Source of the DNA: Gracilariopsis chorda
Taxonomy: Eukaryota; Rhodophyta; Florideophyceae; Gracilariales; Gracilariaceae
Reading direction: 5' to 3'
Assembly: GCA_003194525.1 (NCBI GenBank)
Contig: NBIV01000247.1
Span: forward strand, 62,001 to 126,000
Length of the DNA stretch: 64,000 nt
Part shown: positions 9,990 through 64,000 of the stretch, one piece after another
Numbering within the stretch: position 1 is the stretch's first letter
How the letters are laid out: each line of letters begins with the position of its first letter
Program-made: the position numbers and the translations under genes
Notes under the pieces: model-generated
What the model was told of the DNA's origin: nothing
The model's input: only the letters and a program-made list of their open reading frames with translations
The model's database searches: none

Positions 9990-10040
9990 CTTCGGCTCCG
10001 AACGAATAACTTACCTAGAGCACTTTCGCGAAGTAATTAC

Positions 10041-12022: not shown

Positions 12023-12849
12023 TGAAGTGCAACGCCCTCAGGGAGGGATTCCAGGTACTTGATTATTTTCCCGATATTATCGGTTGTGTAGTGTGTATAT
12101 GAGCTACGCCCCATTATGGTGGATATGAACACGTGGGACACGGTTTTGGGCCAACTGGTGGTCTGCCACGGTAGTGGATGTTGCCACGAAATGTGGAGTA
12201 TTTTAATTAATATTATTTATTATTTTCACACCCATTTCTGTGAAGCTAGTACTTAGTGCGACGGCGCACTGCCGTCGCACCAGTAAACCTTCCCCAACAA
12301 GGGACCCCAACCTGGGGAATTGGCTCTAGTTGTTACCGCTTGCGCGCGTGCTCTACTCCTACTTGGAGGGAAACGCCGTGAACCACGGGACATGGAAACC
12401 CCTTGCACATCTAAAGAAGCCCATTCTTGGGAGTATAATTGTTCCAGTCACATTGGTGTTTCGCCCTTTATAGGGAGTCCTGTCCACCGGCATTGCCGTA
12501 TCTGTTTGTCGCTCTCGCGACTCACTTCGTCCTCTCTTCCTCCTCTTCGCCTTTCCTTTTTCCCCTTTTCAGGGTAGCACCTCCTGCTATCCGCGGCCCT
12601 CGTGTGCACATTCGCTTACACACCCCCACTTACGTGGAACCATAACTTTACTGAGGATCACACCCCGCTCACGCGCATACCGATTCTTCGCCTTCACCTC
12701 CCTGCGCGAGTCGCGACAGGTGTCCCTGGTCTTACAAACCGGCTTCACCGTGACACCTCTGGGAGGACTCTACCCAACTGGGTTCACCTCGTGAGAGGAA
12801 GATCCCGAACGTCTTTCGGTGTTTTTCCTCTTTGGGGCATTGCACCACA
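12023..12849 (+). repeat. C' 3' LTR (inverted relative to the LTR at 13223-14048)
   Basis: 827-bp LTR beginning TGAAGTGCAACGCC and ending GGCATTGCACCACA. The ends form a short imperfect inverted repeat, typical of LTRs. A GC-rich hairpin (GTGCGACGGC and its complement) lies near 12258-12282. It is in opposite orientation to the neighbouring C LTR across a 373-bp spacer, so the two together form a large inverted repeat. Confidence 0.85.
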
Positions 12850-13222
12850 GTCATCAAAGAGATTGCTACGATTGTGAAACGGGCCGGTGCTATCTTGTTT
12901 TCAAACGAGTTGGGCAAAGCAGAAACAGTGAATCAAGCGGTAGACGTAGTGTCACATTGGTTCAGGCCTCACAGCTGCCTGTTTCTTATCGACGACATCT
13001 GGCGTGTGAAGTGTATTGATTCAAGCACATTGACTGCACTCGCAGAAATGGTGAGCTATCGTAGTCGTCTCATGTTCACAACTAGGGACAAGCACTTAAT
13101 GGGCCTGTGTGATGAGGTGATTGAGTTCCCAGTGCAATACACGTATGGGGAGAAGGCACGAAGAATGTTACTGACTCACGCTGGTTTCGATTGGAAGCAG
13201 AAGCTGGACGACCCTTGGCTTC
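12850..13222 (+). pseudogene. NB-ARC (STAND ATPase) gene fragment
   Basis: About 124 codons of host coding sequence between two LTRs. It shows the NB-ARC Walker B region (CLFLIDDIW), the following helix (TALAEMV) and the RNBS-B/sensor motif SRLMFTTRDKHLMG, then a region like the NB-ARC lid (YGEKARRMLL). These are hallmark blocks of APAF-1/R-protein type STAND ATPases, which act as nucleotide-driven signalling switches. The P-loop would lie upstream and is missing. C' abuts on the left and element C interrupts on the right: the first bases right of C at 36552 repeat GCTTC, and the frame stays open to a stop near 36657. It is a disrupted host gene. Confidence 0.75.
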
Positions 13223-14048
13223 TGTGGTGCAATGCCCCAAAGAGGAAAACACCGAAAGACGTTCGGCATCTTCCTCTCACGAGGTGAACCCAGTTGGGTA
13301 GAGCCCTCCCAGAAGTGTCACGGCGAAGCCGGTTTGTAAGACCCGGGACACCTTTCAAGACTCGCCCAGGGAAGTGAGGGCGAAAAATAGGTATCGGCGT
13401 GAGCGGGGTGTGATCCTCAGTAAAGTTATGGTTCCACGTAAGTGGGGGTGTGTAAGCGAATGCGCACACGAGGGCCGCGGATAGCGGGAGGTGCTACCCT
13501 GAAAAGGGGAAAAAGGAAAGGCGAAGAGGAGGAAGAGAGGACGAAGTGAGTCGCGAGAGCGACAAACAGATACGGCAATGCCGGTGGACAGGACTCCCTA
13601 TAAAGGGCGAAACACCAATGTGATTGGAACAATTATACTCCCAAGAATGGGCTTCTTTAGATGTGCAAGGGGTTTCCATGTCCCGTGGTTCACGGCGTTT
13701 CCCTCCAAGTAGGAGTAGAGCACGCGCGCAAGCGGTAACAACTAGAGCCAATTCCCCAGGTTGGGGTCCCTTGTTGGGGAAGGTTTACTGGTGCGACGGC
13801 AGTGCGCCGTCGCACTAAGTACTAGCTTCACAGAAATGGGTGTGAAAATAATAAATAATATTAACTAAAATACTCCACATTTCGTGGCAACATCCACTAC
13901 CGTGGCAGACCGCCAATTGGCCCAAAACCGTGTCCCATGTGTCCATATCCACCATAGTGGGGCGTAGTTCATATACACACTACACAACCGATAATATCGG
14001 GAAAATAATCAAGTACCTGGAATCCCTCCCTGAGGGCGTTGCACTTCA
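13223..14048 (-). repeat. Element C 3' LTR
   Basis: 826-bp LTR (plus strand TGTGGTGCAATGCC...GGCGTTGCACTTCA). Over most of its length it is far more similar to the inverted C' LTR at 12023-12849 (about 2% difference in the inner ~600 bp by eye) than to its own partner at 35720-36551. Confidence 0.87.
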
Positions 14049-47543: not shown

Positions 47544-48362
47544 CTATACCTCCGAAGTCTTGTTCAGGATTGTTACAATGTTCATATGTCTTGAAGCTTT
47601 TGAGAGGTAGAACTTGTCCTTCATTGTAGTTCTGGAAGGCCGTTCGAAGAACTTGCACACACGCACAAAGTCCTCCTCCGTTTCCCCAGCCATGAACCCC
47701 ATGACGTATATAAGCGTAAAGCCATCATTAGCGCTTCCGTTTATCGTAAACAGAGGAAAGCCGTAACGATTGTCAATTGCTTTACAATCAACTGATATTC
47801 CTGGGACCACCCCAAACCTTTTATAATCTTCAATCCATTCTTTTAAAGCCCAGCAGGCGGAGTTCATCCGACCTTGTGCATCGTAGGTAAAGGAGAATTC
47901 GTTCTGAAGGTCCTCTTCATGAAGAGACATGAGTCTCTCTAGAACTTTGGTGCACTCTAAATCCTTCGGATTTGCAACAGACCTGTTGTAGCCTACGATT
48001 TGACGGACAAAATGCACGTTGATAGGGACCCCATACTTGTCGGACAGATATCGAACAGTGTCCGCGAGGTTCATATGCCAGTTATTTGGCATTTGCACGG
48101 CTTCTGACTGCATCTTTGGAGATAGATGCCTAATCCCTCCATTACCTTTTGCAGGAAAGTGATTGTGCGTTGCATTTTGGAATTCAGCTACGTAGCAACT
48201 ACCATCCTCTTTCTGTTGAGGGCTGAGCGTCTTTATCGTCAAGGAAAAGTCGCAAAGCTGCTTCTCATGTCGTTGACGGCATTTCAGTATGCATTTCTTC
48301 AGCACACGATTGCAAACGACTCCCACTGCGACAATCAACCTCCATGGGTTTGTTGCCGACAA
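47544..48362 (-). CDS. MULE transposase (partial catalytic domain)
   Basis: 272 codons. The N-terminal part resembles a DNA-binding region with cysteines and histidines (CILKCRQRHEKQLCDFSLTI, CYVAEFQNATHNHFP), as in WRKY-GCM1/FAR1-type zinc fingers. The catalytic part begins GISVDCKAIDNRYGFPLFTI, giving the first catalytic Asp, then NDGFTLIYVMGFMAGETEED, the expected Mutator block ending in the conserved E-x2-E-x-F. The second Asp, the final Glu and the C-terminal zinc motif are not visible downstream (47428-47658 is another frame without them), so the domain looks truncated. Confidence 0.72.
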   Translation of the reverse strand: MSATNPWRLIVAVGVVCNRVLKKCILKCRQRHEKQLCDFSLTIKTLSPQQKEDGSCYVAEFQNATHNHFPAKGNGGIRHLSPKMQSEAVQMPNNWHMNLADTVRYLSDKYGVPINVHFVRQIVGYNRSVANPKDLECTKVLERLMSLHEEDLQNEFSFTYDAQGRMNSACWALKEWIEDYKRFGVVPGISVDCKAIDNRYGFPLFTINGSANDGFTLIYVMGFMAGETEEDFVRVCKFFERPSRTTMKDKFYLSKASRHMNIVTILNKTSEV

Positions 48363-49227
48363 AGATAGATGTACGGCATTTAAGACTGAATCCCAGACAC
48401 TCAGAAATATACCTTACTTCCTTTAAAACATCCTGCCCGGGTGCGTTCATCTGCACACTTCGAAAATACGCGATGACAGCTGCCTTGAAAACCTCATCTA
48501 CATCCAATTCTTCGTTTGCTTCCTCTCTTACAGGAGACAGCTCCTCATCGGAAGAGCTCGTGTTGACGGCGTATCCACTCTCTTCGCCATTGTGAACAAC
48601 AGTTTCATTGAAGCTGGTTTTCTCATCGTTTGGGATGGCCAACAAATCGTAGGGGACGTCCTCGTCTTCGTCCATTGACATAAACTGTTCAATGAGCTCA
48701 GAGCCGCCAACCTCCTCACCGTTATTCATATCTTCCATCATATGATCGGCTTCTTCTGCCTGACCTCTGGAAATAGTGCTAAGAACTTTGCTCCATTCGA
48801 CGCTGTCAAACTCCAGGAACGGCTTTATCTGTGAAGGTGTCTCGTGGTTTTCGTCGCATAAATTGTCATGAAACGATTCGTCATTTCTATTGGCAACGTC
48901 ACTGACGTTACTGACCTTAATGTCTTCATTTTTGACGCCATATACCTTTATCTGCGATGAATCTGTATTTCCGTGATCTGTAAACTTCTGTTCACTATCC
49001 CCGTCAACTTTTTGCATTTCCCTGACGGTGGTTCGTGACATGGGACGCAGTGTGGGTTTTGGTTTCAATTTCCTGAGAGAAACATGTTCCATCTTAAGTA
49101 GATTGTGGTCATGGATTATTATTGGGGGTGGTACATGGGCATGAATCAATTGAAGATGCTTTCCTGACATGAGGATGGGGTTCTGACGAACTGTGATCTC
49201 GTCACAAAAGACAGTGGTGCTGTTCAC
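48265..49227 (-). CDS. MULE acidic N-terminal segment of transposase
   Basis: 320 codons, strongly acidic (EEADHMMEDMNNGEEVGGSE, SMDEDEDVPYD). It ends in a segment overlapping the start of the transposase frame at 48265-48362, where a short intron or a frame change must link the two. No folded domain is recognised. It is probably the N-terminal part of the transposase protein. Confidence 0.5.
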   Translation of the reverse strand: MNSTTVFCDEITVRQNPILMSGKHLQLIHAHVPPPIIIHDHNLLKMEHVSLRKLKPKPTLRPMSRTTVREMQKVDGDSEQKFTDHGNTDSSQIKVYGVKNEDIKVSNVSDVANRNDESFHDNLCDENHETPSQIKPFLEFDSVEWSKVLSTISRGQAEEADHMMEDMNNGEEVGGSELIEQFMSMDEDEDVPYDLLAIPNDEKTSFNETVVHNGEESGYAVNTSSSDEELSPVREEANEELDVDEVFKAAVIAYFRSVQMNAPGQDVLKEVRYISECLGFSLKCRTSIFVGNKPMEVDCRSGSRLQSCAEEMHTEMPSTT

Positions 49228-49392
49228 ACTACTGACAACCGGAGTGAAGGGGAAGCATTTCTCGTAAAGGGAATCCCAATGTTAATGGCCATGCCCTCTT
49301 ACTTTCGTTCGAAAACCCTGAAAGTAATTCAACAGTTTCTCCTTCATCGCAAAACAATGCTTTACGTTCGTCTCTTCATTTTCATACGGCGG

Positions 49393-49875
49393 TTAGTGGG
49401 AATGATTGAAGTTTAAGAGGGTATTCCAACTCACGGATGTTATGCTCCGCAATGAAAGCACTATACTTGAAGGACAAAATTTGTGCCGCCAACAACGAAA
49501 TCTTGCAGTCAGGATACGGGTTCGCCTTGGGTCTTTCTTCACTGGTTTCTGAATGTAGCACATGTAATGAAGACCGTATGGGAACCATTTCTCGCGATTG
49601 ATAGTATAGACAATTTGGATCATGTCTTCCACCTCCCCGGCATATTTGAAACGCTCTTGACTAGGATCTCGTCGAAGAATATCCCCTAGAGACATTGTAA
49701 AAAATCCATCCATGATTTCATTCATGATCTCTTTCACTTCAAACGGCGCACTTTTGACTTCTATCGGAACTCTAAATCGTACCTTTGTTTCCGATATTCT
49801 CCGAGGCATTTGCGGCATATTAGAGTTCTCATACTCAATCCTTCTCCGTACCTCTTCTTTTGATATTCTTTGCAT
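49393..49875 (-). CDS. MULE internal coding segment, unrecognised
   Basis: 160 codons, rich in charged residues, with FRVPIEVKSAPFEVKEIMNE and MIQIVYTINREKWFPYGLHY in the middle. The composition is coding-like. It lies between protease and transposase on the same strand and could be an exon of either. Confidence 0.4.
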   Translation of the reverse strand: MQRISKEEVRRRIEYENSNMPQMPRRISETKVRFRVPIEVKSAPFEVKEIMNEIMDGFFTMSLGDILRRDPSQERFKYAGEVEDMIQIVYTINREKWFPYGLHYMCYIQKPVKKDPRRTRILTARFRCWRHKFCPSSIVLSLRSITSVSWNTLLNFNHSH

Positions 49876-50248
49876 TCTGTCCCTTTATAAGAAGAGCAGT
49901 AGTATCATTGATATTAACCTCGATCAGGGTCTTAGCAACATACTGAAATTCATTGATGCCACTTTCTCTATCGCGATCCATCTCCTTATGCTGCCCATCC
50001 CCTGCAGCACTGTCTTCCCCAATATCTACTTCAGATTCTCCTGCATACTTTCCCTCTTCAGCAGTGCTCCAAGTGTCATCATCAGTGAGCCTATTCTCCT
50101 GTTGATCCTGCCCATGATCCACACACTCACTGGCGTAGCCCAATTTATGAAGCTTCTTCACACGCACAGGAGGCAGGAAGTCCGAACGTCGTAAAAGTGA
50201 ATATCGAATCTTCTTCAGACTAGTTCGACATTCCTCCCTCAGATTAAA

Positions 50249-51208
50249 TTAGTGATCACGGTGATGAGCTCTATACGAAGAAACTTGGGTTTCACTCACG
50301 GTAACAACTTCATAAAAGATAGAAGCCAAGAATACCTGTAGTATTCTACTCTTCAATGCGGCCCAGCGATACGGATGAGTAAGACTTCTATTAGAACTGC
50401 TTCTGTACGTCTGTGTAGGAGCAAATCCCCGTTCGGTAGCAAATTCAGCTGCGAGGGATATCAAATAGCAACCACAGCTATAACCGTCTCTTTGACGCTT
50501 GTATCCTAAATTATCCAACATGTAGTGTCTCTTGGACACAGCAGCAATGCCCTTCCCATTGAATATAGAATACTCGAATACCTCTTTGAAGATCTTCATA
50601 CCTTCATTCGGAACAGCGGAGCGCAGACTATTTCCAAAGAACACCGTTGACTTTTCTCTTCGCCCACGAGAAGATCCAATACATCGTTTTCCAACAAAAA
50701 CTCCCCACTGGTTTCTACTAATACAGACAGGAATTACAACTGTATGAATTTTGCTATCATCGCCAGTGAAGTTTTTCAAGAAGTCGTTTCTCATTTCGTT
50801 AAGAAAGTCAGCGTGACTTTTATCATTCTTTTCCGAACGCCTTTAGTAGTTATATAGCGATGCACCCACGGTATCTGGACAAATGCAAGCACCAGGTTTC
50901 GGCTTCATGTCCATCAAAGTGGCGTTTATAAGATCAGAGCACATTTGTGACTCTGGAAGAGAGCTGTGAGCCGCTGAGATGGGGGTGTAGTAAGACATTT
51001 CAGCCTTCACGATTGGATAAATATTGCTGTGGATGATAGAGCAACCACGTATAGAATCCGTTACATTCATGCCAGTGTTCAAAGCTAGGTTTGAGTAGAA
51101 ATCTCGGCACAACTTTGAGGCATGGGGGTTATCATTGGAAGATAGAACAGTGTTCAAGACAGCGTCATCAAATAAAGAGCAAGATTCATCTGTATTACAA
51201 AACATCAT
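50249..51208 (-). CDS. Ulp1/SENP-like C48 cysteine protease of the MULE
   Basis: Two open segments (51208-50843 and 50794-50249) probably joined by a short intron. The second carries the C48 catalytic layout: ISRNQWGVFVGKR (the W-x-hydrophobic strand where the catalytic His normally sits; here N-Q-W replaces H-W), TVFFGNSL (a candidate position for the Asp, with N here), and QRDGYSCGCYLISLA (oxyanion Gln and nucleophile Cys). Such SUMO-protease-like genes are known passengers of some MULEs. If His and Asp are truly replaced, it may be inactive. Confidence 0.65.
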
Positions 51209-51521
51209 GCGTTAGAGATCTTCATGCATCATGATCACTAATTTGCAAGCAAAACGTACTTGAACCAAGAACCATTGATAGAAGTAAGATTGCAAGCTTT
51301 ACAGAACAAGAAAAAAGAATACAATACGACAAAATGGTCGCAAAGGAAAGGCAATACAAGAATATCGGGGAGTGATAGAATACAACAAGACAGGAGAAGT
51401 AGCAAAAACCGAAAGACGCGATACCAGAAAGAAGCGATGACGGCAGCCATTCACGTCGTTTGGAAATCAGCGTGCTCTTGACGTCGTCGAGATGAGATAT
51501 TGACATGTTTTACGCCATCAT

Positions 51522-51702
51522 TGTGACCAGTCATTGAGCTACAAGTCAGCAGATCTTGAACCCCACACTTTCATAGGCTGTGCAATACACGGTGCTCTAT
51601 GTGCCGATATGCCCCTAAAAGCTGAGTCACACATTTTGGACCCCACTACCAGATTGGCTGCAGGTCCTACGTCAGCTACGTCGTGTCGATTCGGCTCTTG
51701 CC
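51522..51702 (-). repeat. MULE right terminal inverted repeat
   Basis: 181 bp, inverted partner of 46848-47029, followed by ACAAAAGTAT. Confidence 0.85.
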
Positions 51703-51712
51703 ACAAAAGTAT

Positions 51713-52691
51713 TGGCTCGTGTTCAGTTTAAATGTTGTGGGGCGTTACCCAAAGCTTTGAAGCGAATGTGATTGCAAGCGATGTATGTACGGCGAGGATG
51801 TAAATAATCAGGAGGCTCTCATATGTTGTCGTGCAGCAGCAGCGCAATGGCTGCTTCCCGCTGCTTAAGAGATCAAAACCATCAAAACGGTAGTTCACGA
51901 TAGTGGCTTGCCCCTCCCCAACGCGTTTTGCTGTAAACAAAACATGCCTCCCGCACAGCAGCTACACCGGCACACTGGCTCACTACTTTCGCGCCCTCGT
52001 GCCATCCTTATTCGCGCGTTGCGGTGGTCCTTTGCGAAGAACATAACACGCACATCACCGTCCTCACGATCACGTTCGTTACAAAATCCATCACATGGCA
52101 ATGGTCACAGCTGTTCAATATCAGTACACTCGCAGCTTGGCCCTGCGCTTGGCACTTTGAAGGTGCCATCGGCTGTCTCTTTGCGACTTTCATCCCCATG
52201 TGTGCGAGACTCTCATCGCGCGCGCCGCTTTGCTCGATATGATGCCAGACCCTTTCTGAAATCAGCAAGTGTACTTTTGCATATGTATCAACAAAGTTGG
52301 TGACGCCGAGCATCATGAGGTTGTGCAGAAACACCAAGCACGACTTGGGAGGCCAGAAAAGTGGATGGCGAAGGGCGGACGTGATGATGATGATGAGACA
52401 GGAAAAGGTGAATGCGATGTGGCCACAGTTTCATTGTCATTACATGTCATTGCCATGACGATCCGTATATCTCGAGACTGGTGAGCAGCGAAGGAAGGTG
52501 CGAGCGTGAATGTGCCGACATCATAGGCACCTATAAAGACACTTTAGTAGAAGAGGCTTGATATTAAAGACAGATGCCCCGAGTAGTCCAAAAGGAGACG
52601 CGCCAAACACAAAGTTTCCAAGCCTCATATAGCATGCACTGCTTAACAGATGGATGCGCGTCCTTAAAGAATGAAGCCGGGCTGACACGCT
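51713..52691. other. Stretch without recognisable gene right of the MULE
   Basis: Open frames such as 52008-52337 (minus) and 51908-52303 (plus) oppose each other and show no domain. The tandem-repeat region begins at about 52693. Confidence 0.45.
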
Positions 52692-52692
52692 C

Positions 52693-53359
52693 CTTATAGT
52701 AGTGTTACTTGTAAGTATGGGCTAGGACAGCGATTTAGGCGGTATCGGCTTGGGCATGGTACTGACACAGAACGTTGACCTTATAGTAGTGTTGCATGTA
52801 AGTGTGGGTTTGCGCTTGGTTTTTGGGGGTGTGGGCAAGCGCTTGGTTCTGACGCAAAACGTTGAACGAGTGGTGGAATCGCTGTATGTACGTTTTTCAT
52901 GCCTTCAGTGGATGACGAAGCGCTGTGCGCCGGTTATGAAACAAACGCTTGAGCTCAAAAAACCTGGCTAAATATTATAGAATGCTTGGTTCGGCTAAAA
53001 ACCAAGCGCATACATCAAAAAATTAGGATTTGACATCGCCGTTTGCGCTTGGTTTTAGGCATATATGGCACGTGTTGCGTGCATGTCGTGTAAGTAGCGT
53101 AGTTGAGGGCATATTTAAAGGTTTAGCGCGCCAATACAGGGTGCCCCAGCGCTTGGTTTTAGCCATGATTTGTCAGAGCCTTGTAGGAAGGTCCTGAAAG
53201 TGCGCGCGCGCGCATAGGTGCGTGTCGGAGGCTTTGGAAGCATGGTTTCTGAGCTGGTTTGGCAAGGTTTGGTCGCATGCTCCATGTGCTTGGTTTTAGC
53301 CAGCTTTTCACAGACCAAGCGCGTGGGATGTTTTTTGGCTCATTTGTAGAATGTGGGCA
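52693..53359. repeat. Degenerate repeat region, partial units
   Basis: Two partial copies of the 454-bp unit (starting with CTTATAGTAGTGTTACTTG at 52693 and a related start at 52780), followed by scattered GCTTGGTTTT motifs at about 52980, 53040, 53150 and 53285, some paired with AACCAAGC nearby. Confidence 0.7.
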
Positions 53360-53733
53360 GGCGCTTGGTTTTGGACTGGCTTGTAGAAACCAAGCAACAC
53401 GTCAATATTTCGCACATTGTACAAATGTACGAAAGCGCTTGGTTTTGGACACAGTTGCCCAAAGCAAACATTTCGGGCATGTTTACGCACATTGTGCAAA
53501 TGATCGAAAGCGCTTGGTTTTGAGCACATTCACGCAACCTAGCAGTGCGGGGTTTTTTCGCACATCGTAGAAATATGTGAAAGAGCTTTGTTTTAGGCCG
53601 TTTAGGTGAGAGACCAAGCAAAGCGTGGATTTTTTTGCACATTGTACAAGACTACAAAAGCGCATGGTTTTTGCAACATTTGCTAAAACCATGCTATGCA
53701 GGCATGTTAACGCATATTGTGCAAAAGAGCGAA
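53360..53733. repeat. 73-77-bp tandem repeat with GCGCTTGGTTTT core
   Basis: Five diverged units starting at 53360, 53434, 53509, 53582 and 53659. Each opens with AGCGCTTGG-like sequence and ends with GCACATTGTNCAAA-like sequence. Several units also contain ACCAAGC, the inverse of the core, so single units could form hairpins. Confidence 0.8.
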
Positions 53734-53737
53734 AGCG

Positions 53738-54645
53738 CTTATAGTAGTGTTACTTGTAAGTATGGGCTAGGACAGCATTTTAGGGGGTGTCGGCTTGGGC
53801 ATGGTACTGACACAGAACGTTGACCTAGTGGTGGAAACGCTGTATGCCCGTGTATGTGCATTTTTGACCCCTTGTGTGGAGAACGTTGTCCTGTAGGCAC
53901 TGTATGATACATTCCGGACGGCTGAAAAATGTGGACGCAGATTATACAGGACAGCGTTTTGCAAAAACGTTGTCCTGGGTTCAAAAAATTTATATTTTGC
54001 ACCCCCCCTAGGACATGGTTTTGGAAGGATTTGGCACGTGCCTGGTGCGTGCACCACAAAAGCGGGTTTTCGAGGTACGTAAAGGCATTCTCCGTGCCAA
54101 AATGAACGTGCTCTCGGACAACGTTCTTCGCGTATTGCGTCAGACGCGTGCAAGTGGTTATGCTTGTGTAAGTGAAGCGCAAATGCTCAATCTTATAGTA
54201 GTGTTACTTGTAAGTATGGGCTAGAACAGCGTTTTAGGGGGTGTCGGCTTCGGCATGGTACTGACACAGAACGTTGACCTAGTGGTGGAAACGCTGTATG
54301 CGCGTGTATATGCATTTTTGACCCCTTGTGTGGAGAACGTTGTCCTGTAGGCACTGTATGATACATTCCGGACGGCTGAAAAATGTGGACGCAGATTATA
54401 CAGAACAGCGTTTTGCAAAAACGTTGTCCTGGGTTCAAAAAATTAATATTTTGCACCCCCCCTAGGACATGGTTTTGGAAGGATTTGGCACGTGCCTGGT
54501 GCGTGCACCACAAAAGCGGGTTTTCGAGGTACGTAAAGGCATTCTCTGTGCCAAAATGAACGTGCTCTAGGACAACTTTTTTCGCGTATTCCGTCAGACG
54601 CGTGCAAGTGGTTATGCTTGTGTAAGTGAAGCGCAAATGCTCAAT
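53738..54645. repeat. 454-bp tandem duplication
   Basis: Copy 1 is 53738-54191 and copy 2 is 54192-54645, with only a few percent difference. Both begin CTTATAGTAGTGTTACTTG and end AATGCTCAAT. A minus-strand frame of about 147 codons remains open in both copies, but the differences change amino acids freely, so I do not call it a gene. Confidence 0.9.
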
Positions 54646-54794
54646 CTGAGCTGCGTTTTTCTTCGCTCCCGAGACATATGAGGCTTCGCAGAGCGGTCGT
54701 AGCACTTTTGTGTTTGTTGAGGGGGGTAAGATTGGATTTTTCATGTTGGATATGTGGTTTTAGCGTTCATTACGCTTCGGAAGGGAAGCGGTTC

Positions 54795-55019
54795 TAAGGT
54801 AGCGGGGTTTTTAGAATAGAGTTTAGGGGTGTTACAGCGGCTTTGAAAGTTTACGGTTACATGGTGTCCTAAGGTAGCGGGGTTTTTAGAATAGAGTTTA
54901 GGGGTTTTACAGCAGCTTTGAAAGTTTACGGTTTTATAGTGTCCTAAGGTAGCGGGGTTTTTAGAATAGAGTTTAGGGGTTTTACAGCGGCTTTGAAAGT
55001 TTACGATTTTATAGTGTCC
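54795..55019. repeat. 75-bp satellite, three units
   Basis: Units at 54795, 54870 and 54945, nearly identical, each containing GGTAGCGGGGTTTTTAGAAT and TTTAGGGG. The G/T-rich motif resembles the degenerate tract at 62577-62680. Confidence 0.92.
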
Positions 55020-55142
55020 TATGTATTAGGGGTTTTTTGGGTTTTTTAATGGATTCTTATCACGCAGAGTTCTTTGGGGGCTTTAGGGGAACTTGCTTAG
55101 GCTTTTGGGTGTTTTCACAATTAGCTGTACAGATTAGAATAG

Positions 55143-55295
55143 GGTTTTCACGTCTATAGCTATAGAGACCAATGTTTTTCTGGATTTACGAATGGGGGAT
55201 GGTTTCGTGGACATTAGGTTTTCAGGTTTTCAGGTTTTGTAGGATTATAGGATTCTATAGATATAGGAGGATTTCAGGATTTACGAGGTTTTCAG
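55143..55295 (+). repeat. 153-bp direct repeat, left copy
   Basis: Matches 62424-62576 with about two differences in 153. It contains TCTATAGCTATAGA (a palindromic stretch), the half-site GAATGGGGGA at 55190-55199 and a run of GGTTTTCA repeats. It lies 1.4 kb upstream of the tyrosine recombinase. Confidence 0.93.
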
Positions 55296-55518
55296 GTTTT
55301 CTGTGGTTTTGCGCGGTTTTCAAAGGGTTTTCAGTGGAGTTTCAGGATTGCGATGGTTTTGCGGTGGGGTTTTATGGATAGAGTGGTTTGACGGTGGTTT
55401 TACGGTGGTTTTTCAGTTTACGGGTGGTTTTACGCGGGTAACAGTGGGGTTTCCACCCACGGCAACCGGCCGCTGCCACCTGGCATCAGCCACCCACCCA
55501 GGCTGGGACCTTGGGGTG
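55296..55518. repeat. G/T-rich degenerate repeats
   Basis: Irregular repetition of GGTTTTNCGGTGG-like words (GGTGGTTTTACGGTGG and similar) continuing from the direct repeat. No gene. Confidence 0.55.
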
Positions 55519-55597
55519 TGACACGTATTACACACAAGTGACACGCACCACACGCACATGACACGCACCACACGCAGTGACACGCAGCACACGTACG
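55519..55597. repeat. 20-bp tandem repeat, four units
   Basis: Units TGACACGCACCACACGCA(C/G) start at 55519, 55539, 55559 and 55578 with minor variation. Confidence 0.85.
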
Positions 55598-55681
55598 CGA
55601 TTGCAGCTGGCGCTCTACAACGCATTACACCGCCACTAATTGCTTTAAGAAGAGCAAAGCTGAGGTGGTTTGCGAAGTGAA

Positions 55682-55818
55682 AATCGCTGCGGTAGCGCAG
55701 TGGGTACTGGCCATGCCCACTGCGCTACCACACCGGTGATCATGGGTTCGATTCTCCACACACGCACATTCTGCAGCATGCACTGGCCATGCACGCTGCG
55801 CAATGTGTGCGTGTGTGG
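55682..55818 (+). other. tRNA-like double hairpin with Pol III boxes (SINE-like)
   Basis: An A box (TAGCGCAGTGGG at about 55693) and a B box (GGTTCGATTCT at about 55745) lie 52 bp apart. The A box is inside a perfect 14-bp inverted repeat (55691-55704 with 55716-55729). The B box is followed by a second hairpin with arms of about 27 bp, 24 matching (55756-55782 with 55790-55818), and the two loops share CTGGCCATG. This is not a normal cloverleaf. A tRNA-derived SINE or inverted-repeat relic fits best. Confidence 0.5.
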
Positions 55819-55990
55819 GGGGGGAATGTTTTTTTCCCGTTGCCTTTTTCTACTCTAGGTTGGTTTTAGGAAGAAACTAGTTTAATTAAATACATTAGTA
55901 CGTTCTACAGGTCTCTACGGACCGGGAACGATAGTCTATTATGTTGTAGGTGTGGATTGTCTAGGGTACAGGCTACACTGAGGTTCATCG

Positions 55991-56015
55991 GAATGGGGGA
56001 AGCGTTCCCCCACTT
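55991..56015. promoter_or_regulatory. Palindrome P1, candidate recombinase site
   Basis: 25 bp: left arm GAATGGGGGAA, core GCG, right arm TTCCCCCACTT. Arms match in 9 of 11 positions. It is the same design as P2 and P3 and lies 661 bp upstream of the tyrosine recombinase start. The left arm shares GAATGGGGGA with both 153-bp direct repeats. Confidence 0.6.
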
Positions 56016-56200
56016 CAAGCTATCACTAAACTGCGCTGGTGACAAACGTGTCACTTGAATGAGAAAAGAAGGTATGTAAAAAAACGATACTGCAAGTACA
56101 TGCGTACATCGAGATTTTGACCGTAGAGCAATGTACATCGTGCTGTCATGTGATGGAAGGGGTTTACAGGTAACGCCAGCGTAGAAACATATTACCTAAA

Positions 56201-56239
56201 GTACAGTGCGCTGCCTTTTTTATTGACAGCGCACTGTAC
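56201..56239. other. Hairpin with 13-bp perfect arms
   Basis: Arms GTACAGTGCGCTG (56201-56213) and its exact complement (56227-56239) surround a T-rich 13-bp loop. It could be a transcript hairpin, a terminator-like structure or a protein-binding site upstream of the recombinase gene. Confidence 0.6.
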
Positions 56240-56675
56240 ATTACATAACACCGCGCTCTATGAAATTACACAGTCCATGTGGCACGTGCACCATCGTGTG
56301 GCCTAGACCACATAGTACGCCTTTTGCCTTACCTTTAGAGCTGACGGTGAAGGGTGGAAGGCCGAAAGGGGTGCCCAGGGGTTGTAGAGCGTGTGTTTGA
56401 GTGACCTGTGTGGCTGTGTAGAGAAGACAGTTGCGCACGTGGTGTCGATAAAGCGTGACGTACGCCTGCGCAAAGGAGTCACGACGCATCGCTGGTGTAC
56501 CCACCTCCTTGGTAATCCCAGACGTGAGGGGAGGGATTTTAGTTTTGAAGCATTACCAAACCGGGTCTTGAAGTGAACAGAGCTGCAGTCATTCCGTTTC
56601 ATCACCGCTATCCGAATAGGTGCATACGAAAACAACACACCGTCGCCAGTTTGTTCCGTATTCATCGCCGTCAGC

Positions 56676-59327
56676 TTGATACACAACATGAAGAGCGTTC
56701 TCTTCCATCACCTCGAATCCAACGATTCCTCACGCCGTGGGCTCGCAAAACCAATCCGATCCGTGTACCGGAAGAAAGCTACATCCTCCGACACTGCCAC
56801 TTTGTCGCACGAACGACCACGGACTGCAAAAGGCAGTACGAACAGCTCCTCTGCACTTCGCACCCACCAACCACCGCAGGGTCCGACAGCCGCGCAGGGC
56901 GTGACAAAAAAGCGAGGCTTTGCGGCGCCTTTAAACTCTCCCGTACACCACCGTCAAGCACTGCAGAGTGTTGCATCCAAAGCTCAGAGTACCTCCACAC
57001 ATGCAAAGAAAGGCAATGCGGTTCCAAAGGGCAACTCCCATCCGCAATCCGAAAGCCCAACCCGCATCCTGATCCCAAGTATGAAAGCCCGAAAGGCAAA
57101 TGCTGCAAGTGCGAGGGCAGGTGCTCCAAGGAATGTACGACGCTCCACTCATACCGCAGAAGTGGTCACTGGGAACCCCGTAGTACCCGTTGGCGTCGTC
57201 GTTGAGAACGTCGAGGAGTTCTCTACGGAAGAAGTTGGAAAGCAGGTATCGGATGACGAACAGGAGGTGGAAACTGTTGAGGAAGCTGGCATCGACGTTG
57301 TTCAGGTAGTTACAGAGACCCCAGAGGAAGGAAGTGGTTTAGACAACACGGAAGCGGTGTTGGATGTCGACGGACTTGATACTGAGCGGGTTTTGGACGA
57401 AGAAGAACACGAGGAGGAGGTCAGTCAAGATGTTACAGCCAGAGGGGATGAGGGTGTTGAAGCAACACAGGTCGATCTTCGAGAGTTGTTGCAAAGACAG
57501 GAGCGCACTTTGAAGAATAGGAACAACGAATTGTTCCATGAAAGGGCTGACATATTTCAAAGCCCACGTAACCGGGGTAACGCTGCGGCACTGCTCAGCA
57601 TACATTCACTTCAAGCCACGATCGGTGACCATAGCAACAAGCCTGATACTCCAGAGGGGTTGTGGAAAGGTTTGGTGGATCTTGCAGTAGCGCGCGACCC
57701 TGGCTTCTTTTCCAGTGACGACGCTCGTATGAAAAACTCGAATCGGTGTGTGGGAAAGGGTTCTGCCGCGTATTCCGGACTCAAAGTCAACCGGTACAAC
57801 TGCCTTGACCTGAACGAAAGCTATACGCTTCGATATCGCACAAAGGAGCTGATGAATATGGCAACCGGATCCAGTTTCAAGCTGTTGCAGTCGATTGTGG
57901 GCCAGTTCCTGCGGTGGTGTATTAGTTCCAAGCGATTGGGCCGCTACGATGGGTGGAAGGAAAGGGCACTTTTCAGACAACTGGCCAAAGAAGACCTCGT
58001 CCAAGTGTTTGTGAACCATTTCATTACCACCTCTTCGTCCTCAACTGTGGCATCGAAATGCAACGCTCTTCACATTGTCACAAAATATGCGACGCTTAAG
58101 TTCAATGACGATGCAACCCGTCTTCGGATCGCGAGAGTGGCTTTGTATCTAACAACCACCTTCAATGCGGCAAAGTGCAAGTACAGGGAGGACGCCAGAC
58201 AGAAGCAGGATGCCGATCGCCGCGTCAAAGAGCACCGCATCGTAACCGAAAGCCACACCAAGAAGGGTATTCGTTTGGCAAGGGCCGTTCTGGAAGACAT
58301 CATAGACTCTTACTTTGGAAGGGCGGAGAAGAAGGGGCCCGAGTCCGCGGAGAGGATGTTGGCAAAGACGAGTGGACTTATCCAAAAGTGGTGCCTTAAC
58401 TTCCTGGGCTTACTGACTCTCAGCGGTGGTGGCCAGAGACCTCAGGCGTACGCACGGTTGCAGTGTCCGCCCCGAAAGGTTTTAGAAGCAGTGTACGGAG
58501 ACGATGAGCTCACCCAGGAAGTTGTCAATGTGAAGACGTTCAGAGAGAAGACCGCTCGTGCTCTCGACATACCGGATGTTGCATTCCCAGTCATCGTGCT
58601 TCCATACATTACGTTTCACGTGGACGTGATAAGGCCGATACTAATCAACCGCCGGCACGTTAAGCCATCTGCTGTTTTCCGAATGAATGAGCCGCTTCTT
58701 CTCCATACTCGAACAGTAGAGTACATGACTCCCAGCAATGTGAGTCACTCCATCCGTGCTTTCATGCGAGGTGTAGACCCAAAGCTCACCAACGTCACGG
58801 CAATGACACTGCGCGCAAGTTACGCCACATCCATGCTTCACAGCTACCGGCAAGGAATGTTTAAGGACAGCAAGTTGTCGGAGGACGAGTTCTTGGGGTT
58901 AGTAGCGAAGCACATGAACACGTCAGTTGAGCAGTTGCGAGGTACGTACATGGCTGCATACTCCAAGGACTTCACGCAGACGATGAAGCTCTTCACGAAG
59001 CACTTCAGCATAGTTATGAACGAAAAGAATGACGAGAACGAAAGTTGTGTTGAGACAGAGGAAGGTGAAAACGAGGATGATAAAGAAGTGGTGGTTGGGG
59101 ACTCGCGTTGGAAGAGACGACGCGCTGAGCAACGTCGTAGAATACCAAAGGGTCTATTCCACTATGACAGCGAAAGCGATGCGGAATTACCCTCCCCCAA
59201 GCGAAAGGTAAGGAGAAAGACCAACGAGACATTAGTGTTCGGTAGTGGAGGTTCCTCGAACAGTGGTTTCGATGGTGAAGACGACGCTGAAAACGTATTC
59301 CCTGACGAAGAAGAGGACGATGGGTAG
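56676..59327 (+). CDS. Tyrosine recombinase, Crypton-like
   Basis: 883 codons, one frame. Residues 1-170 are basic and low-complexity, and about 175-265 strongly acidic. A helical core-binding region follows near 395-490 (LLQSIVGQFLRWCISSKRLG). The catalytic domain shows R587 in LSGGGQRPQAY (box I Arg), the second Arg at 713 in MTLRASYAT (box II H-x-x-R, with Met replacing His), then KHMNTSVEQLRGTY giving the probable nucleophile Tyr758. The C-terminal 95 residues are acidic then basic (KRRRAEQRRR, a likely nuclear signal). In eukaryotes this class cuts and rejoins DNA through a 3'-phosphotyrosine. No RT or RNase H is near, so Crypton fits better than DIRS/Ngaro. The start at 56676 is the first Met of the frame; a later Met is possible. 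Confidence 0.78.
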   Translation: MIHNMKSVLFHHLESNDSSRRGLAKPIRSVYRKKATSSDTATLSHERPRTAKGSTNSSSALRTHQPPQGPTAAQGVTKKRGFAAPLNSPVHHRQALQSVASKAQSTSTHAKKGNAVPKGNSHPQSESPTRILIPSMKARKANAASARAGAPRNVRRSTHTAEVVTGNPVVPVGVVVENVEEFSTEEVGKQVSDDEQEVETVEEAGIDVVQVVTETPEEGSGLDNTEAVLDVDGLDTERVLDEEEHEEEVSQDVTARGDEGVEATQVDLRELLQRQERTLKNRNNELFHERADIFQSPRNRGNAAALLSIHSLQATIGDHSNKPDTPEGLWKGLVDLAVARDPGFFSSDDARMKNSNRCVGKGSAAYSGLKVNRYNCLDLNESYTLRYRTKELMNMATGSSFKLLQSIVGQFLRWCISSKRLGRYDGWKERALFRQLAKEDLVQVFVNHFITTSSSSTVASKCNALHIVTKYATLKFNDDATRLRIARVALYLTTTFNAAKCKYREDARQKQDADRRVKEHRIVTESHTKKGIRLARAVLEDIIDSYFGRAEKKGPESAERMLAKTSGLIQKWCLNFLGLLTLSGGGQRPQAYARLQCPPRKVLEAVYGDDELTQEVVNVKTFREKTARALDIPDVAFPVIVLPYITFHVDVIRPILINRRHVKPSAVFRMNEPLLLHTRTVEYMTPSNVSHSIRAFMRGVDPKLTNVTAMTLRASYATSMLHSYRQGMFKDSKLSEDEFLGLVAKHMNTSVEQLRGTYMAAYSKDFTQTMKLFTKHFSIVMNEKNDENESCVETEEGENEDDKEVVVGDSRWKRRRAEQRRRIPKGLFHYDSESDAELPSPKRKVRRKTNETLVFGSGGSSNSGFDGEDDAENVFPDEEEDDG

Positions 59328-59388
59328 ATGTGGCATTGCAAGTATGGGAATAGAGCTTGGGAATGACGCGCAGTACGCTTAGAACAGC

Positions 59389-59694
59389 TTATCCGTCGTC
59401 AATGACGCGTGCGGAAAGTAAATGAGACAGCATGGTTGATTTGGAGAGATAGGATGTGCCAGCATTGTTGAGCGCAGTAATGAGTACTTCTATGCACTCT
59501 ACAGAAGTGCATGAATGGAAGTGGTCGTGAGCAAATACTTTCATAGGCAGTGAGTTGCGCTCAGCAACGGGATGTTGTTGGATGATTGAGCAAACGGTGG
59601 CAGAAGAAATAAAGTCTCGCACTGCAGGGGGTGTAGCCTGCGTCTCCATCTGGGCCCTGTGCTCACGGTATACATACTGCACTCTGGCCAACAT
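59389..59694 (-). CDS. 101-codon open frame, possible last exon of partner gene
   Basis: Small minus-strand frame (SLPMKVFAHDHFHSCTSVEC near the middle) between the recombinase and the spliced partner gene. It has coding-like composition and no known motif. It could be an additional small gene or untranslated sequence of the partner gene, whose stop codon is at 59859. Confidence 0.3.
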   Translation of the reverse strand: MLARVQYVYREHRAQMETQATPPAVRDFISSATVCSIIQQHPVAERNSLPMKVFAHDHFHSCTSVECIEVLITALNNAGTSYLSKSTMLSHLLSARVIDDG

Positions 59695-59858
59695 TACAGT
59701 CCACCCTTACAAACTTATAACATGGTGCAGAACATTCTGTAGGTCCCCAGCAGACATACAGAAGATATAACGGATTGTATGTCGTGGTCACGTGGTCAAG
59801 ATGTCATGACGTCCACTCTTTCGCAGTCTTGCATTAATCACCCTTTGTCATTTTTCAT

Positions 59859-61472
59859 TTACTCTGAACGTTCGTATTCGCTCTCCTCTGAATCCGTGTC
59901 AGTACTCGACTGACTTGAACTTAAAGAATCCCTTTCTTCGTAATCGCTCCCTTCCTCCATATCCGCCTCCCATACTTGTCCGAGACACAGTGGGAACGGC
60001 AAAGGCTTCCCCATTACAAACTGAAAGTAGTCGTAAGGCACATCATCGACGAAGCATTGTTCCTTCCCATGGATTCCCATCGAACTCACTCCATCTTCAA
60101 CAACATCATCTTCACTAACCGTCGTCTTGTTCACGTTTGGTAAGCGAAAAATGGGCGTTTTACGATAGGCGTCCAGCACCCCTTCCCTCCCCAACTGAAG
60201 GCTTGAAGCTGATTGAACTATTTGTAGCCGCAACTCTGTGTTCATTGAAACGTTAATTGCAGATGGAATCGTCCCCACTATGCCCAACTCTTCTTGTTCG
60301 TCGTTACTGAAAAAGTCATTCCATTGTATGTAACTTACAGTAGATTTGTAGTCTGGCTCAAGGAAATCCGTGAAATTGGAGTACTCGTCGAGCTCTTCCG
60401 ATTGGTAGGATGCCAATCTGCGCAAGAACACCATCTTCTCGTCTTCGGGTAGAGTCACACGTACAGCATGGATAAATACAACCACATCATCTGTTGAGTG
60501 AGCTCCTATACGAACGACGCATGTACTACGAAGGACAATACTACATCCAATCCTTAGAAAGAACGTTTGCACGCGCTTGCTGTTCACACCCGCCATGACC
60601 GGGGGTACCCACTCGTAGTAGTTACCTTTCTGCCCTTGCCTTGCACTGTGACCACGAACTACCTCCTCGGTTACAGTTAGATATATTCCTAGGTTCTCCA
60701 GCTTCTCTGGAAATAGTCCAATTGACCTACTTGGAAGCAGAGTATACGAAATGAACAAGGCCTCTTTGCGACATCCGTTCTCGCTCATGATTGTGTTGTT
60801 CCAGCAGTAGCTTTTCAAGGTCTGACCTTCTGTTGGAAACTTACCGGCTTTAGAATAAATGGTGCTGCGCCTGCGACACAAGGTAACTGATTCAATCGGA
60901 GCGTCTATGACGCGCAAGAAATCCTGCATTCCACATAGAGGCGGTAGGATAACACAGTATCGGAAACCACTCCATGTGTATACCTCGCTACCTGCAGCTC
61001 GTTTACGAGACTCCTCCGGTTTTACCTCCTTCTCATCACATCGCTTGCCTCTCTGACAAACGGTAGACAAAACATATTAGTGTGCGATGATCATGGATTC
61101 TAGTGTCTCGCACCTGCCTTTACCGCGGTGGTCTGTGAGGCGGACGAGCTTTGCGGTTGACTGTGGTCCCAAGTACGCTTTTTCCATCCGGAAAGGGGTA
61201 TGAAGGGTAGATAGACCGCTTATGACGTCAAACTTCGTGGGCTCTAGGTACTCCAGAATTTCTCCATATTCGCAGACGGTGAGGTTATGCATGCCCATTG
61301 AAAACCCAAACCCTTGCTGTAGACCACGGAACGATGAACGCAATATGTTCGTCTCTTTGCACGCATCCGTGTTCTTTTCATTCTCATTCCAGTTCACAAA
61401 GATTTCCAGAGGTTTCCTCTTCGTCCCTATGAAGTTCACCCTTTCCTCCCTACTCTTCGATTTCCTTCCCAT
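59859..61472 (-). CDS. Recombinase-convergent partner gene, one intron, unknown function
   Basis: Two coding segments: 61472 to about 61123 and about 61050 to 59859. They are linked by a 60-75-nt intron with GT donor (GTAAAG at 61123 or GTGCGA at 61113), AG acceptor near 61050 and an ACTAAT branch-type sequence. Two donor/acceptor pairings keep frame, and I cannot choose between them. The protein is about 510 residues: basic N-terminus (GRKSKSREER), a beta-rich middle (RTSTCVVRIG-type strands; VQTFFLRIGCSIVLR, DDVVVFIHAVRVTLP), acidic segments (NDEQEELG) and a very acidic tail (DTDSEESEYERSE). I do not recognise a family. It faces the recombinase tail-to-tail inside the same pair of direct repeats, so it is plausibly a second protein of that element. 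Confidence 0.6.
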
Positions 61473-61845
61473 GATACCCCAGGTGTGTAGATCTGAGACG
61501 GAACAGGGAAAGTTGAACTTCGTGGTGCCTTGATAGTTCTCAGTTGGCTGAAGGCGTCTTGTTTAAGTTCATTGCAGATGTGTTCTTTACGCGCAGGATA
61601 GGGAAACAGAAAGTTAGACTTCTACGTATGTAGTGTGACTTTTCTCTCGGTTTAGAAGTTCACTTCGCGTTCGAGTGTTAGAGACGACGTTTCGGCGTAG
61701 GTTGATGTGGCGTTTTAGTTTTGTTGCTGCCGTGGTTCGGGAGTGTTGCCATAGAGCTGCGCGGAGGTGGAGATTGTTGGGAGAACTAAATGTGGTGGTG
61801 GTTGTAGCCATCGTTGATCATAATCTGGTTCGAAAGGGTGGTTTT

Positions 61846-61870
61846 AAATGGGGGAAAGATTCCCCCATTT
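61846..61870. promoter_or_regulatory. Palindrome P2, candidate recombinase site
   Basis: Perfect inverted repeat: arm AAATGGGGGAA, core AGA, then the exact complement of the arm. 374 bp upstream of the partner gene start. Confidence 0.7.
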
Positions 61871-62322
61871 CGGTAACAGTCGGTGTTTCAAAATGTGGTG
61901 CCCCAAATTACACTGGGGGCGACGCGCGGTGTAGATGCTATGCTGTAGGATGGATGACGGTTCAAGTGACCACTCGTGACCTATATGGTGGTGAGCTATG
62001 CACGTACAGAGACAACTTTTCTCCCCGATGGCGAGCGACTGGCCACAGATTCTGACACGTCACATTGGCATACAGGGCATACAGTGCACGGAGTTTCATT
62101 GGTCATGAACATCCGACATCCGCTGTCAGTACCGTTACTTGTGTAACAGCCTGGACACGTCCTCAGAGGTCCGATGGTGTGCAGTCCGTAAGGCCTGTGC
62201 TACTTTTTAATATTCTGTGATACAAATTGCGGACAGGAGACACGCCCGCATGGTTCACCGATGAGTACGTTGCATGCTGCGCGCGACCGTGACTGGCGAT
62301 TTTTACGGGAGGGTATGGGGAA

Positions 62323-62347
62323 AAGTGGGGGAATCTTTCCCCCACTT
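62323..62347. promoter_or_regulatory. Palindrome P3, candidate recombinase site
   Basis: Perfect inverted repeat: arm AAGTGGGGGAA, core TCT (the complement of P2's core), then the exact complement of the arm. It lies 77 bp left of the right direct repeat. Confidence 0.7.
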
Positions 62348-62423
62348 GCGCACTCATCAAGATTTCCTATTATTTGTACCTGCGCCGTATAGCGGGGCTT
62401 CATAGCTTCCAGGGGTTTTTAGC

Positions 62424-62576
62424 GGTTTTCACGTCTATAGCTATAGAGACCAATTTTTTTTTGGATTTACGAATGGGGGATGGTTTCGTGGACATTAGGT
62501 TTTCAGGTTTTCAGGTTTTGTAGGATTATAGGATTCTATAGATATAGGAGGATTTCAGGATTTACGAGGTTTTCAG
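62424..62576 (+). repeat. 153-bp direct repeat, right copy
   Basis: Partner of 55143-55295 with about two differences, separated by exactly 7281 bp start to start. The half-site GAATGGGGGA is at 62471-62480. Confidence 0.93.
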
Positions 62577-62680
62577 ATTTAGGGGTTTTTAGGGGATTTT
62601 AGCGGTTTTTTGGGGATTTTAGGGGTTTTTCAGGGGATTTTAGGGGTTTTTAGGGGTTTTTTCCTTTTTAGGGGGTTGAG
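62577..62680. repeat. TTTTAGGGG-like degenerate tract
   Basis: About ten irregular units of TTTTAGGGG/GGGGATTTTAG. It resembles degenerate telomere-type repeats and could form G-quadruplexes. A similar motif occurs in the 75-bp satellite at 54795-55019, on the other side of the recombinase element. Confidence 0.7.
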
Positions 62681-63105
62681 GGTGTGCGGCGTCGCGCAGG
62701 GAGCATAAGGGGGAGAGAGAGACGGCTGAAGGACTTAGAGTCCTCGGAAAGGGAGGGGGAGCAGCAGGGAAGGGGGGGAAGAAGGGAAAGAGGGAAAGGT
62801 TGGCAGAGCGCTTTCGTCTTTACGACTCCTCAGTGCCTTGGTTGTTGGGGTGAGGAGGGAAGGAGATGGCCAGAGGGGAGTCTGGCACTCCTTATATATC
62901 CTCCAGATACCCTAGCACTGCTCTATCCTTTTCTACGCTGCATCCAGCAGTTTCTACGCAGGTTTCTACGGAGGGGGATCCAGGAGGATCCGTTACGTCT
63001 ATCTGTAAACATCATGACCGTTTGTCACGTAACCACCACGTTATTGGCAACAAGACCGTTACAACAAGGCGTGTAGGCTGTGACAACTTGTCCGTTACGA
63101 AACTG
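62681..63105. other. Stretch between G-rich tract and RT, no gene seen
   Basis: Purine-rich (GGGA/AAGG) around 62700-62800. The plus frame at 62684-63076 is composition-driven. The 11-bp word TCATGACCGTT occurs at about 63013 and 63107. Confidence 0.4.
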
Positions 63106-64000
63106 TCATGACCGTTGAATCTGGGTGGCCCGTTTTTGATTTTTCCAAAAATCGTGCCAATACGACGTGTATAATTGAATCTGACGGTTTCGGCGGGCCC
63201 GAGTGTTGGCCCTGTAGACGTTCCGCATTCCTGCACGGCCATGCGCACGCTGTTTAAAGTCTGCAGACTTTAAACAGGGTACCGCACTGATGACATGGCG
63301 GCTGACACTGTCGCCCTTCTTGAAAAAGAGCGTACGTGGCCACTTCTCTCGAATTCCATGACGTGGCAGCTGACACTCAATCCAGGCTTGGAACTGGCGC
63401 CAATACTTCTTCATCTGTGGATGGAATCTGCACTTCACGAGGGATCCTAGGTCAGGAGGCTCCCGTTCCGCGCGTTCGAGATACTTTGCCCTGTCACGGT
63501 AGCTTACATAATCCAGCGCAGCGCGTAGATACTTTCCAGTGTATCCTCGATGCGCCAACATTCTGAACAAGTGAGCCACCTTGGCCTTCCACGTGCGTTC
63601 ATCGGTGGTGTTCCGTAAATAGCGAATCAGTTCGCCCTTAACTACACCGGTGAACGTGTGCGTGGGATGGTTGGACTTGCCATGGAGGTACAGGAACTTG
63701 GAGATAGGCTTAGTGTACACCTTAACGTCCACGAGATTGTGGAAGAAGAATCTCCGCCCTTTGTATATCTCCAGGTCCAGATAGACTGCCTTCTTTTCAC
63801 TGATATCCCATGTCATGCGTAGGTTCGAACATGTGTTCAGTCGTTGCATGAGCAGGTCGGCAGCCTCTCTGTTCCGCAGTATCACGAGACCATCATCAAT
63901 GTAGCGACGGTTGATGATGACACTGCTGACAAAGTCCTTGAAGATCCTTCGGAACTTATAGAACAGGTATAGATTGGCAAAGGCAGGAGCTACGGCTGTT
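63106..64000 (-). CDS. Penelope-like reverse transcriptase (partial, C-terminal part)
   Basis: Minus-strand frame entering from the right edge. The part upstream of 63885 reads APAFANLYLFYKFRRIF and RRYIDDGLVILRNRE, giving the RT catalytic Y-I-D-D box. Then come VYLDLEIYKGRRFFF, VYTKPISKFLYLHGKSNHP and VKGELIRYLRNTTDERTW. The K-P...Y-L-H...S-x-H-P and R-x-x-R blocks after the palm are characteristic of Penelope-like elements and related RTs, where they form the thumb. The C-terminus is basic and shows no GIY-YIG endonuclease, so it may be an endonuclease-free type or a truncated copy. The frame ends with a stop at 63106. Confidence 0.65.
   Translation of the reverse strand, partial: TAVAPAFANLYLFYKFRRIFKDFVSSVIINRRYIDDGLVILRNREAADLLMQRLNTCSNLRMTWDISEKKAVYLDLEIYKGRRFFFHNLVDVKVYTKPISKFLYLHGKSNHPTHTFTGVVKGELIRYLRNTTDERTWKAKVAHLFRMLAHRGYTGKYLRAALDYVSYRDRAKYLERAEREPPDLGSLVKCRFHPQMKKYWRQFQAWIECQLPRHGIREKWPRTLFFKKGDSVSRHVISAVPCLKSADFKQRAHGRAGMRNVYRANTRARRNRQIQLYTSYWHDFWKNQKRATQIQRS
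63250..63277. other. Perfect 28-bp palindrome inside the RT frame
   Basis: Arms CTGTTTAAAGTCTG and its exact complement with no spacer. It lies within the C-terminal coding part of the Penelope-like RT. Confidence 0.8.

Follow-up and report, generated by a model that had tools for sequence, protein, structure and literature searches.

In the red alga Gracilariopsis chorda we find a family of elements that are probably DNA transposons carrying a tyrosine recombinase (YR) and targeting telomeres. One long copy and the stump of a second lie in the window, the whole stretch of 64,000 nucleotides analysed here, which corresponds to positions 62,001–126,000 of contig NBIV01000247.1 (C247; 127,209 bp). 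The genome searched comprises 91.3 Mb in 1,081 contigs. The copies begin at one exact point behind a telomere-type motif, several of them break off on the right, at positions that vary, and pass directly into AGGGG-T(4–9) repeats, and young copies are located close to contig ends, most of them facing outward. The parts of the window concerned are the following.

55127..55148, plus strand: left target junction, ...GTACAGATTAGAATA-GGGTTTT; a site without the element in C299 is the same up to GGGTTTT and continues with TAGGGGGTTTC.
55142..62412, plus strand: element copy 1, 7,271 bp including GGGTTTT, with its left end intact and its right part missing relative to C140 and C182.
55143..55299, plus strand: left repeat, the G-rich left end of copy 1.
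56688..59327, plus strand: tyrosine recombinase, 879 amino acids from ATG, or 883 codons from TTG at 56676.
59859..61475, minus strand: gene 2, a protein of the element family, divided into two open reading frames (ORFs) by one in-frame stop (codon 132 of 538).
62413..62423, plus strand: telomere-like GGGTTTTTAGC, directly following the break on the right of copy 1, where C140 reads ...cttccagcataggc.
62424..62576, plus strand: right repeat, read as the truncated left end of a second copy, with a GGTTTT core (62424–62429) and a body of 147 bp (62430–62576).
62577..62680, plus strand: telomere-like array following the second truncation.

The two direct repeats (55143–55299 and 62424–62580) are 98% identical over 157 nt. 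The preliminary description gave them as 153 bp with about two differences, 7281 bp apart, and this is borne out: the 153 bp differ at exactly two positions, with a start-to-start distance of 7,281 bp. A search of all contigs with the 153-bp repeat yields 23 matches on 20 contigs, at 74–100% identity and well above chance; 17 of these contigs hold one repeat and three hold two. A recombinase gene follows 16 of the 23 repeats (C247 left, C140, C173, C182 first, C299 twice, C343, C422, C474, C479, C138, C70, C584, C353, C435, and C565). Four are stumps that pass directly into a G-rich array (C247 right, C182 second, C345, and C9), and three are older repeats, read at the repeat and its flank only (C105, 87%; C152, 86%; C38, 74%). 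The earlier assignment to a tyrosine-recombinase mobile element is right, and the element exists in multiple copies.

Rightward sequence of 7 kb or more is available for eight copies: C247, C140, C173, C182, the first of C299, C343, C422, and C474. A second repeat lies downstream in the window, C182, and C299, at spacings of 7,281, 12,858, and 7,580 bp, respectively, and in none of the other five. These comparisons identify the 153-bp repeat as the left end shared by members of a transposon family and not as a terminal repeat, because a second repeat accompanies just three of the eight copies and the spacings are unequal. The claim that the repeats frame a unit is therefore not confirmed. Other loci hold single repeats and the content between paired repeats differs, as the preliminary description had named as grounds for giving up its reading; its other such ground, that the repeat is an ordinary member of a G-rich satellite, is not what we find, given the recombinase genes that follow most repeats.

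The closest relative of copy 1 explains the layout of the window. Window positions 55142–62412 align with C140 at 97.0% identity over 7,292 columns. At 62412, C140 proceeds with ...cttccagcataggc... toward a third gene, whereas the window reads ...cttccag-GGGTTTTTAGC-GGTTTT-CACG..., so that copy 1 ends 11 bp short of the right repeat. As judged from this alignment, copy 1 is truncated at 62412 and the right repeat is a 147-bp stump of a second copy, since C140 runs past the break without a right-hand repeat.

At the left end, the element usually starts at GGG(G)TTTT|CACG, and the flanks left of this boundary are unrelated among copies, save for shared subtelomeric pieces. The junction set comprises 24 cases, namely 22 repeats (C565 is cut by the contig start) and two members of a sibling family. 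GGG(G)TTTT precedes the element body in 21 of them; the exceptions are GGTTTT in C247 right and C38, and GGTGTTTT in C345. The G run is preceded by A in 16 junctions and by TTA in eight. A paralogous empty site is present in C299 (5972–5933, minus strand), which reads GTACAGATTAGAATAGGGTTTT-TAGGGGGTTTC (GGGTTTT|TAGGGGG) where the window reads GTACAGATTAGAATAGGGTTTT-CACGTC; the two regions are 95% identical over 209 bp. In four cases, comparison with related unbroken sequence suggests a broken flank, with a telomere-like piece in front of the element: C173 and C182 second against C343, C422 against C479, and C247 right against C140. The tandem junctions in C182 and C104 likewise have GGGTTTT between copies.

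The pattern TTTTAGGGGTTTTTAGGGG has 450 exact matches in the genome, 277 forward and 173 reverse, while the reversed-pattern control gives 0 and 2. Among the units counted in C173, C345, C140, and C182, G4 followed by T5 or T6 is commonest and T4–T9 are frequent, with some longer T runs and GGGGAT as variants. AGGGGT(4–9) arrays were seen to reach the contig end in 12 contigs, and in all 12 the G strand points outward, a result that holds at the level of contigs. Of the 20 places with repeats of at least 89% identity, 18 have the repeat facing the closer end of its contig; among contigs of at least 50 kb with young copies, this is so in 12 of 12.

The YR of the window is encoded by ORF 56676–59327, which has no internal stop, in line with the 883-codon recombinase described earlier. 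R308, K345, R433, and Y478 of the aligned piece (588, 625, 713, and 758 in the 883-codon ORF) are invariant in 16 of 16 sequences, and from the motif we take them to be catalytic. The predicted structure is a Cre/Xer-like model with the fold of the superfamily. Three of the 15 recombinase homologs are from Gracilaria domingensis (48–51% identity). Between subfamilies, the YR core is under purifying selection. No Pfam family matches the window YR, and a YR profile run against PDB sequences gives a single weak match (expectation value, E, of 0.021). Among viral contigs, 23 stretches fitted a pattern for YR relatives and none was confirmed.

The longer copies measure about 12–13 kb and contain the recombinase, the opposed gene 2, gene 3, and a further small ORF (gene 4), which agrees with the earlier view that the element is larger than a single-gene Crypton. 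In C140, gene 3 matches the C48 (Ulp1) peptidase family (PF02902) at 22.0 bits, against a cut-off of 20.7; gene 3 of the C182 copy has no Pfam match, so that the assignment comes from the C140 copy alone. Gene 4 is present in C182 and C343 and, by eye, also at the end of C584. Beyond the point where the window copy breaks off, C140 aligns with C182 and C343 in pieces through gene 3, at 66–74% identity. The distance from one left end to the next is 12,858 bp in C182, an upper bound on element size, and 11,647 bp in the sibling family in C104. A right end was sought in C182, C343, C140, C345, and C104, and no end sequence agreed between families.

Gene 2 lies tail-to-tail with the recombinase and was described earlier as a convergent spliced gene. 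Convergent it is, but not spliced. In the window, the region holds minus-strand ORFs at 59859–61070 and 61077–61472, and in the C140 copy the gene is one continuous ORF. Over 538 codons, stop included, the two align without internal gaps, and the window gene is interrupted once, by an in-frame stop at codon 132. By this comparison gene 2 of the window is damaged rather than intron-containing, because the single stop is its only interruption relative to C140, and splicing is rejected. Pfam gives no match for the C182 protein and weak matches below the cut-off for the C140 protein and the longer piece of the window. A structure model has a mean predicted local distance difference test score of 29 and is of no use. 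Comparison of C247 and C140 with C182, C173, and C422 gives about 91–92% DNA identity for the recombinase and just about 66% for gene 2; judging by these values, the two subfamilies seem to have acquired their recombinase and gene 2 modules through differing histories.

The element is known here from sequence, and movement was not observed. In the mechanism that we propose, the YR would act on an excised, probably circular element (or other free DNA) and recombine it, through a GGGTTTT core, with repeats that are telomeric or telomere-like. The polarity of the telomere would therefore fix the polarity of insertion. Loss at the chromosome end would then trim the outward end, telomerase would heal the break, and a later copy could land in the new repeats. 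The window would record two such rounds: copy 1 trimmed at 62412 and healed, and copy 2 landed, trimmed to 147 bp, and healed again.

Several observations weigh against a family of telomere-targeting YR transposons. Most left junctions hold one or two telomere-type repeats and no long array, which is not the outcome expected if elements inserted at random along a long telomere; the element might instead dock on the first repeats, or interstitial arrays might shrink. We have seen no complete insertion in telomere repeats with its left and right junctions together, which leaves the right end and a two-sided target unproven. That the AGGGG-T(4–9) array is the telomere is something we infer, and arrays or short runs also occur inside contigs, among the places listed in C3, C5, C10, C58, C96, C117, C151, C269, and C898. 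Location near contig ends is weak evidence, as assemblies break at dispersed repeats, and orientation is the stronger. Even so, the young repeats in C474 (34 kb) and C565 (14 kb), and two of the three old ones (C105 and C152), point to the farther contig end. As to the recombinase, the His of HxxR is replaced by a nearly invariant M430, and a Foldseek search with the YR model gives no match past E 0.001. The C140/C247 pair looks unconstrained, since its core dN/dS is 1.04.

The preliminary description proposed an element of 7.4 kb with two genes and a 153-bp direct repeat at either end, formed by integration of a one-repeat circle or by duplication of a host repeat. The layout of the window itself favors this, and C182 and C299 also have a second repeat downstream, but the unequal spacings, the 17 contigs with a single repeat, and the continuation of C140 toward gene 3 make it highly improbable. 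Long terminal direct repeats as element ends are ruled out by C140, C173, C343, C422, and C474, which have the left repeat alone; the two-gene unit results from chance truncation. Nearly as improbable is a YR retroelement of the DIRS, Ngaro, or TATE type that is only partly seen and has split direct repeats. A YR, a telomere-repeat target, and head-to-tail clusters are indeed combined in TATE, as described in the excerpted text of PMC6681497. However, Pfam detects no reverse transcriptase (RT) or RNase H at E 0.1 in any of the 12 stop-to-stop ORFs of at least 120 amino acids in the C182 copy (1–13830), and gene 3 of C140 encodes a C48 peptidase. No split direct repeats were seen either, the left end not being repeated at the right in five of eight copies and the complete right end being undefined. 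A split-repeat retroelement is thus rejected, the C182 copy having given no RT match.

More weight, although we still consider it unlikely, goes to a subtelomeric block that does not move by itself and that exchange among chromosome ends has distributed, in the manner of yeast Y' elements or segmental duplications. Proximity to contig ends and the common polarity fit it, as do neighboring repeats common to several ends (window 54192–54888 with C299 and C343). Against it stand the exact left boundary with unrelated flanks, the purifying selection on the YR core between subfamilies, and the otherwise matching site that lacks the element. Spread of the Y' type as the sole cause is rejected on account of the unrelated left flanks; end-to-end exchange may have copied the right part of some loci. 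We tentatively suggest a further reading, for which the odds are well below even: an element with a recombinase and no RNA stage would dock on chromosome ends that have just been healed or have become critically short and would extend them in outward stacks, as a recombinase-based counterpart of Terminons and HeT-A. Docking on the first telomerase repeats is suggested because most junctions hold one or two repeats, four of them on visibly broken host or element sequence (C173, C182 second, C422, and C247 right).

The window also contains three palindromes, all outside the recombinase and gene 2.

55993..56015, no strand: imperfect palindrome ATGGGGGAA-GCG-TTCCCCCACTT, an element-linked motif.
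61846..61870, no strand: palindrome AAATGGGGGAA-AGA-TTCCCCCATTT.
62323..62347, no strand: palindrome AAGTGGGGGAA-TCT-TTCCCCCACTT.

One of the three fits the pattern ATGGGGGAANNNTTCCCCCAT exactly. This pattern has 22 sites in the genome (reversed-pattern control, 0), of which 16 are on eight contigs with a YR match and one is on C105, a contig with an older left end. The other five are on C379 and C406, where neither a YR match nor a left end is listed. C182 has three sites, one of which (13970) is just left of the element and outside it. The motif might bind a regulator or the recombinase. A role as recombination site is only a lead; the arm spacer is 3 bp, compared with 6–8 bp as usual for YRs in the excerpted text of PMC3212892.

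Some neighboring sequences may belong to further elements. At several sites (window 53738–54037 and 54192–54491, C343, and C299), unrelated sequence gives way at CTTATAGTAGTGTTACTTG to a subtelomeric repeat, which might be another fixed-end element. Beyond the telomere-like array, an ORF at 63106–63885 (minus strand) and its counterpart in C343 (7126–7746 of its extract, plus strand) have their 3' side facing the array. Both look to us like the C-terminal part of a Penelope-like RT; telomere-attached Penelope elements likewise turn their 3' side to the telomere repeats. Pfam gives no match, and for P0021, a weak relative, the RVT_1 match (E 0.01) stays below the cut-off. Four related stretches, at about 65%, are present in C343. 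An ORF at 50249–50794 (minus strand), without a Pfam match, contains a QRDGYSCG..YL stretch that resembles the active site of C48 peptidases. Another family, in C458 (2500–8500), C243, and C702, has a pair of genes of recombinase type, which converge tail-to-tail in C458 and C243 but share a strand in C702. One encodes a 603-residue YR with GGQRPQ and TY, and the other, in C458, a 512-residue relative that, by eye, seems to have lost its Arg, HxxR, and Tyr motifs, as if active and inactive partners traveled together. An Rfam scan of window positions 48000–64000 gives no matches at gathering scores.

Excerpts of published reports place the element among known systems. TATE of Leishmania braziliensis forms tandem clusters of YR elements at one fixed site in the telomeric hexamer, GGG^TTA (PMC6681497). 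The red-algal element shares the YR and a left junction fixed at a telomere-type motif, the right side of an intact insertion not having been seen; TATE, in contrast, is a retroelement with Gag-like and RT/RNase H ORFs, whereas the red-algal element has no RT match and carries the C48 gene and gene 2. Cryptons have a YR and no RT, a C48 (Ulp1) peptidase is encoded by some CryptonS and, in oomycetes, by some CryptonF elements, and short direct repeats at their ends are taken as the recombination core (PMC3212892). The red-algal element, a YR element without an RT match and with a C48 gene in C140, is Crypton-like in content, a likeness drawn from content and not from a YR tree. Its GGG(G)TTTT motif is found at the left end and in the empty site, the complete right end being unproven. 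It differs in its size of about 12–13 kb, up to four ORFs, telomere-type target, M for H in HxxR, and lack of a Pfam YR match.

Majaniviruses and related endogenous nimaviruses of crustaceans have a YR family linked to insertion into (TAACC/GGTTA)n, and the YRs of majaniviruses, whose giant double-stranded DNA genomes measure 278–401 kb, are reported not to be close to those of Cryptons (PMC10871703). Telomere-motif targeting linked to a YR would be common to both systems, a likeness of description rather than of compared sequences, and the ~12–13-kb red-algal element contrasts with giant virus genomes. Terminons, Penelope-like retroelements of rotifer telomeres, have an inner end fixed at telomere repeats, an outer end cut by short telomere stretches, and head-to-tail stacks (PMC6431247). 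The red-algal element resembles them in all three respects, but Terminons attach the 3' end of an RNA by RT, unlike a YR DNA element. In the open-licence literature, searched for telomeric YR elements and for Cryptons and telomeres of red algae, we found no report of the red-algal element. Neither the excerpted text of TeloBase (PMC10767889) nor that of the Gracilaria sex-chromosome paper (PMC12502185) gave the AGGGG-T(4–9) repeat or the element.

Information on red-algal telomere sequences is mostly missing or fragmentary, according to an excerpt of PMC7046594, and AGGGG-T(4–9) is a telomere-repeat candidate for a red alga. YR-linked telomere targeting has been reported from the kinetoplastid retroelement TATE and from crustacean viral elements, to which G. 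chorda would add an RT-less, C48-carrying, Crypton-like element. On this view, elements may have arrived in the telomere niche on more than one occasion. The copies in G. chorda would document, as a natural archive, how chromosome ends broke, were healed, and received new insertions.

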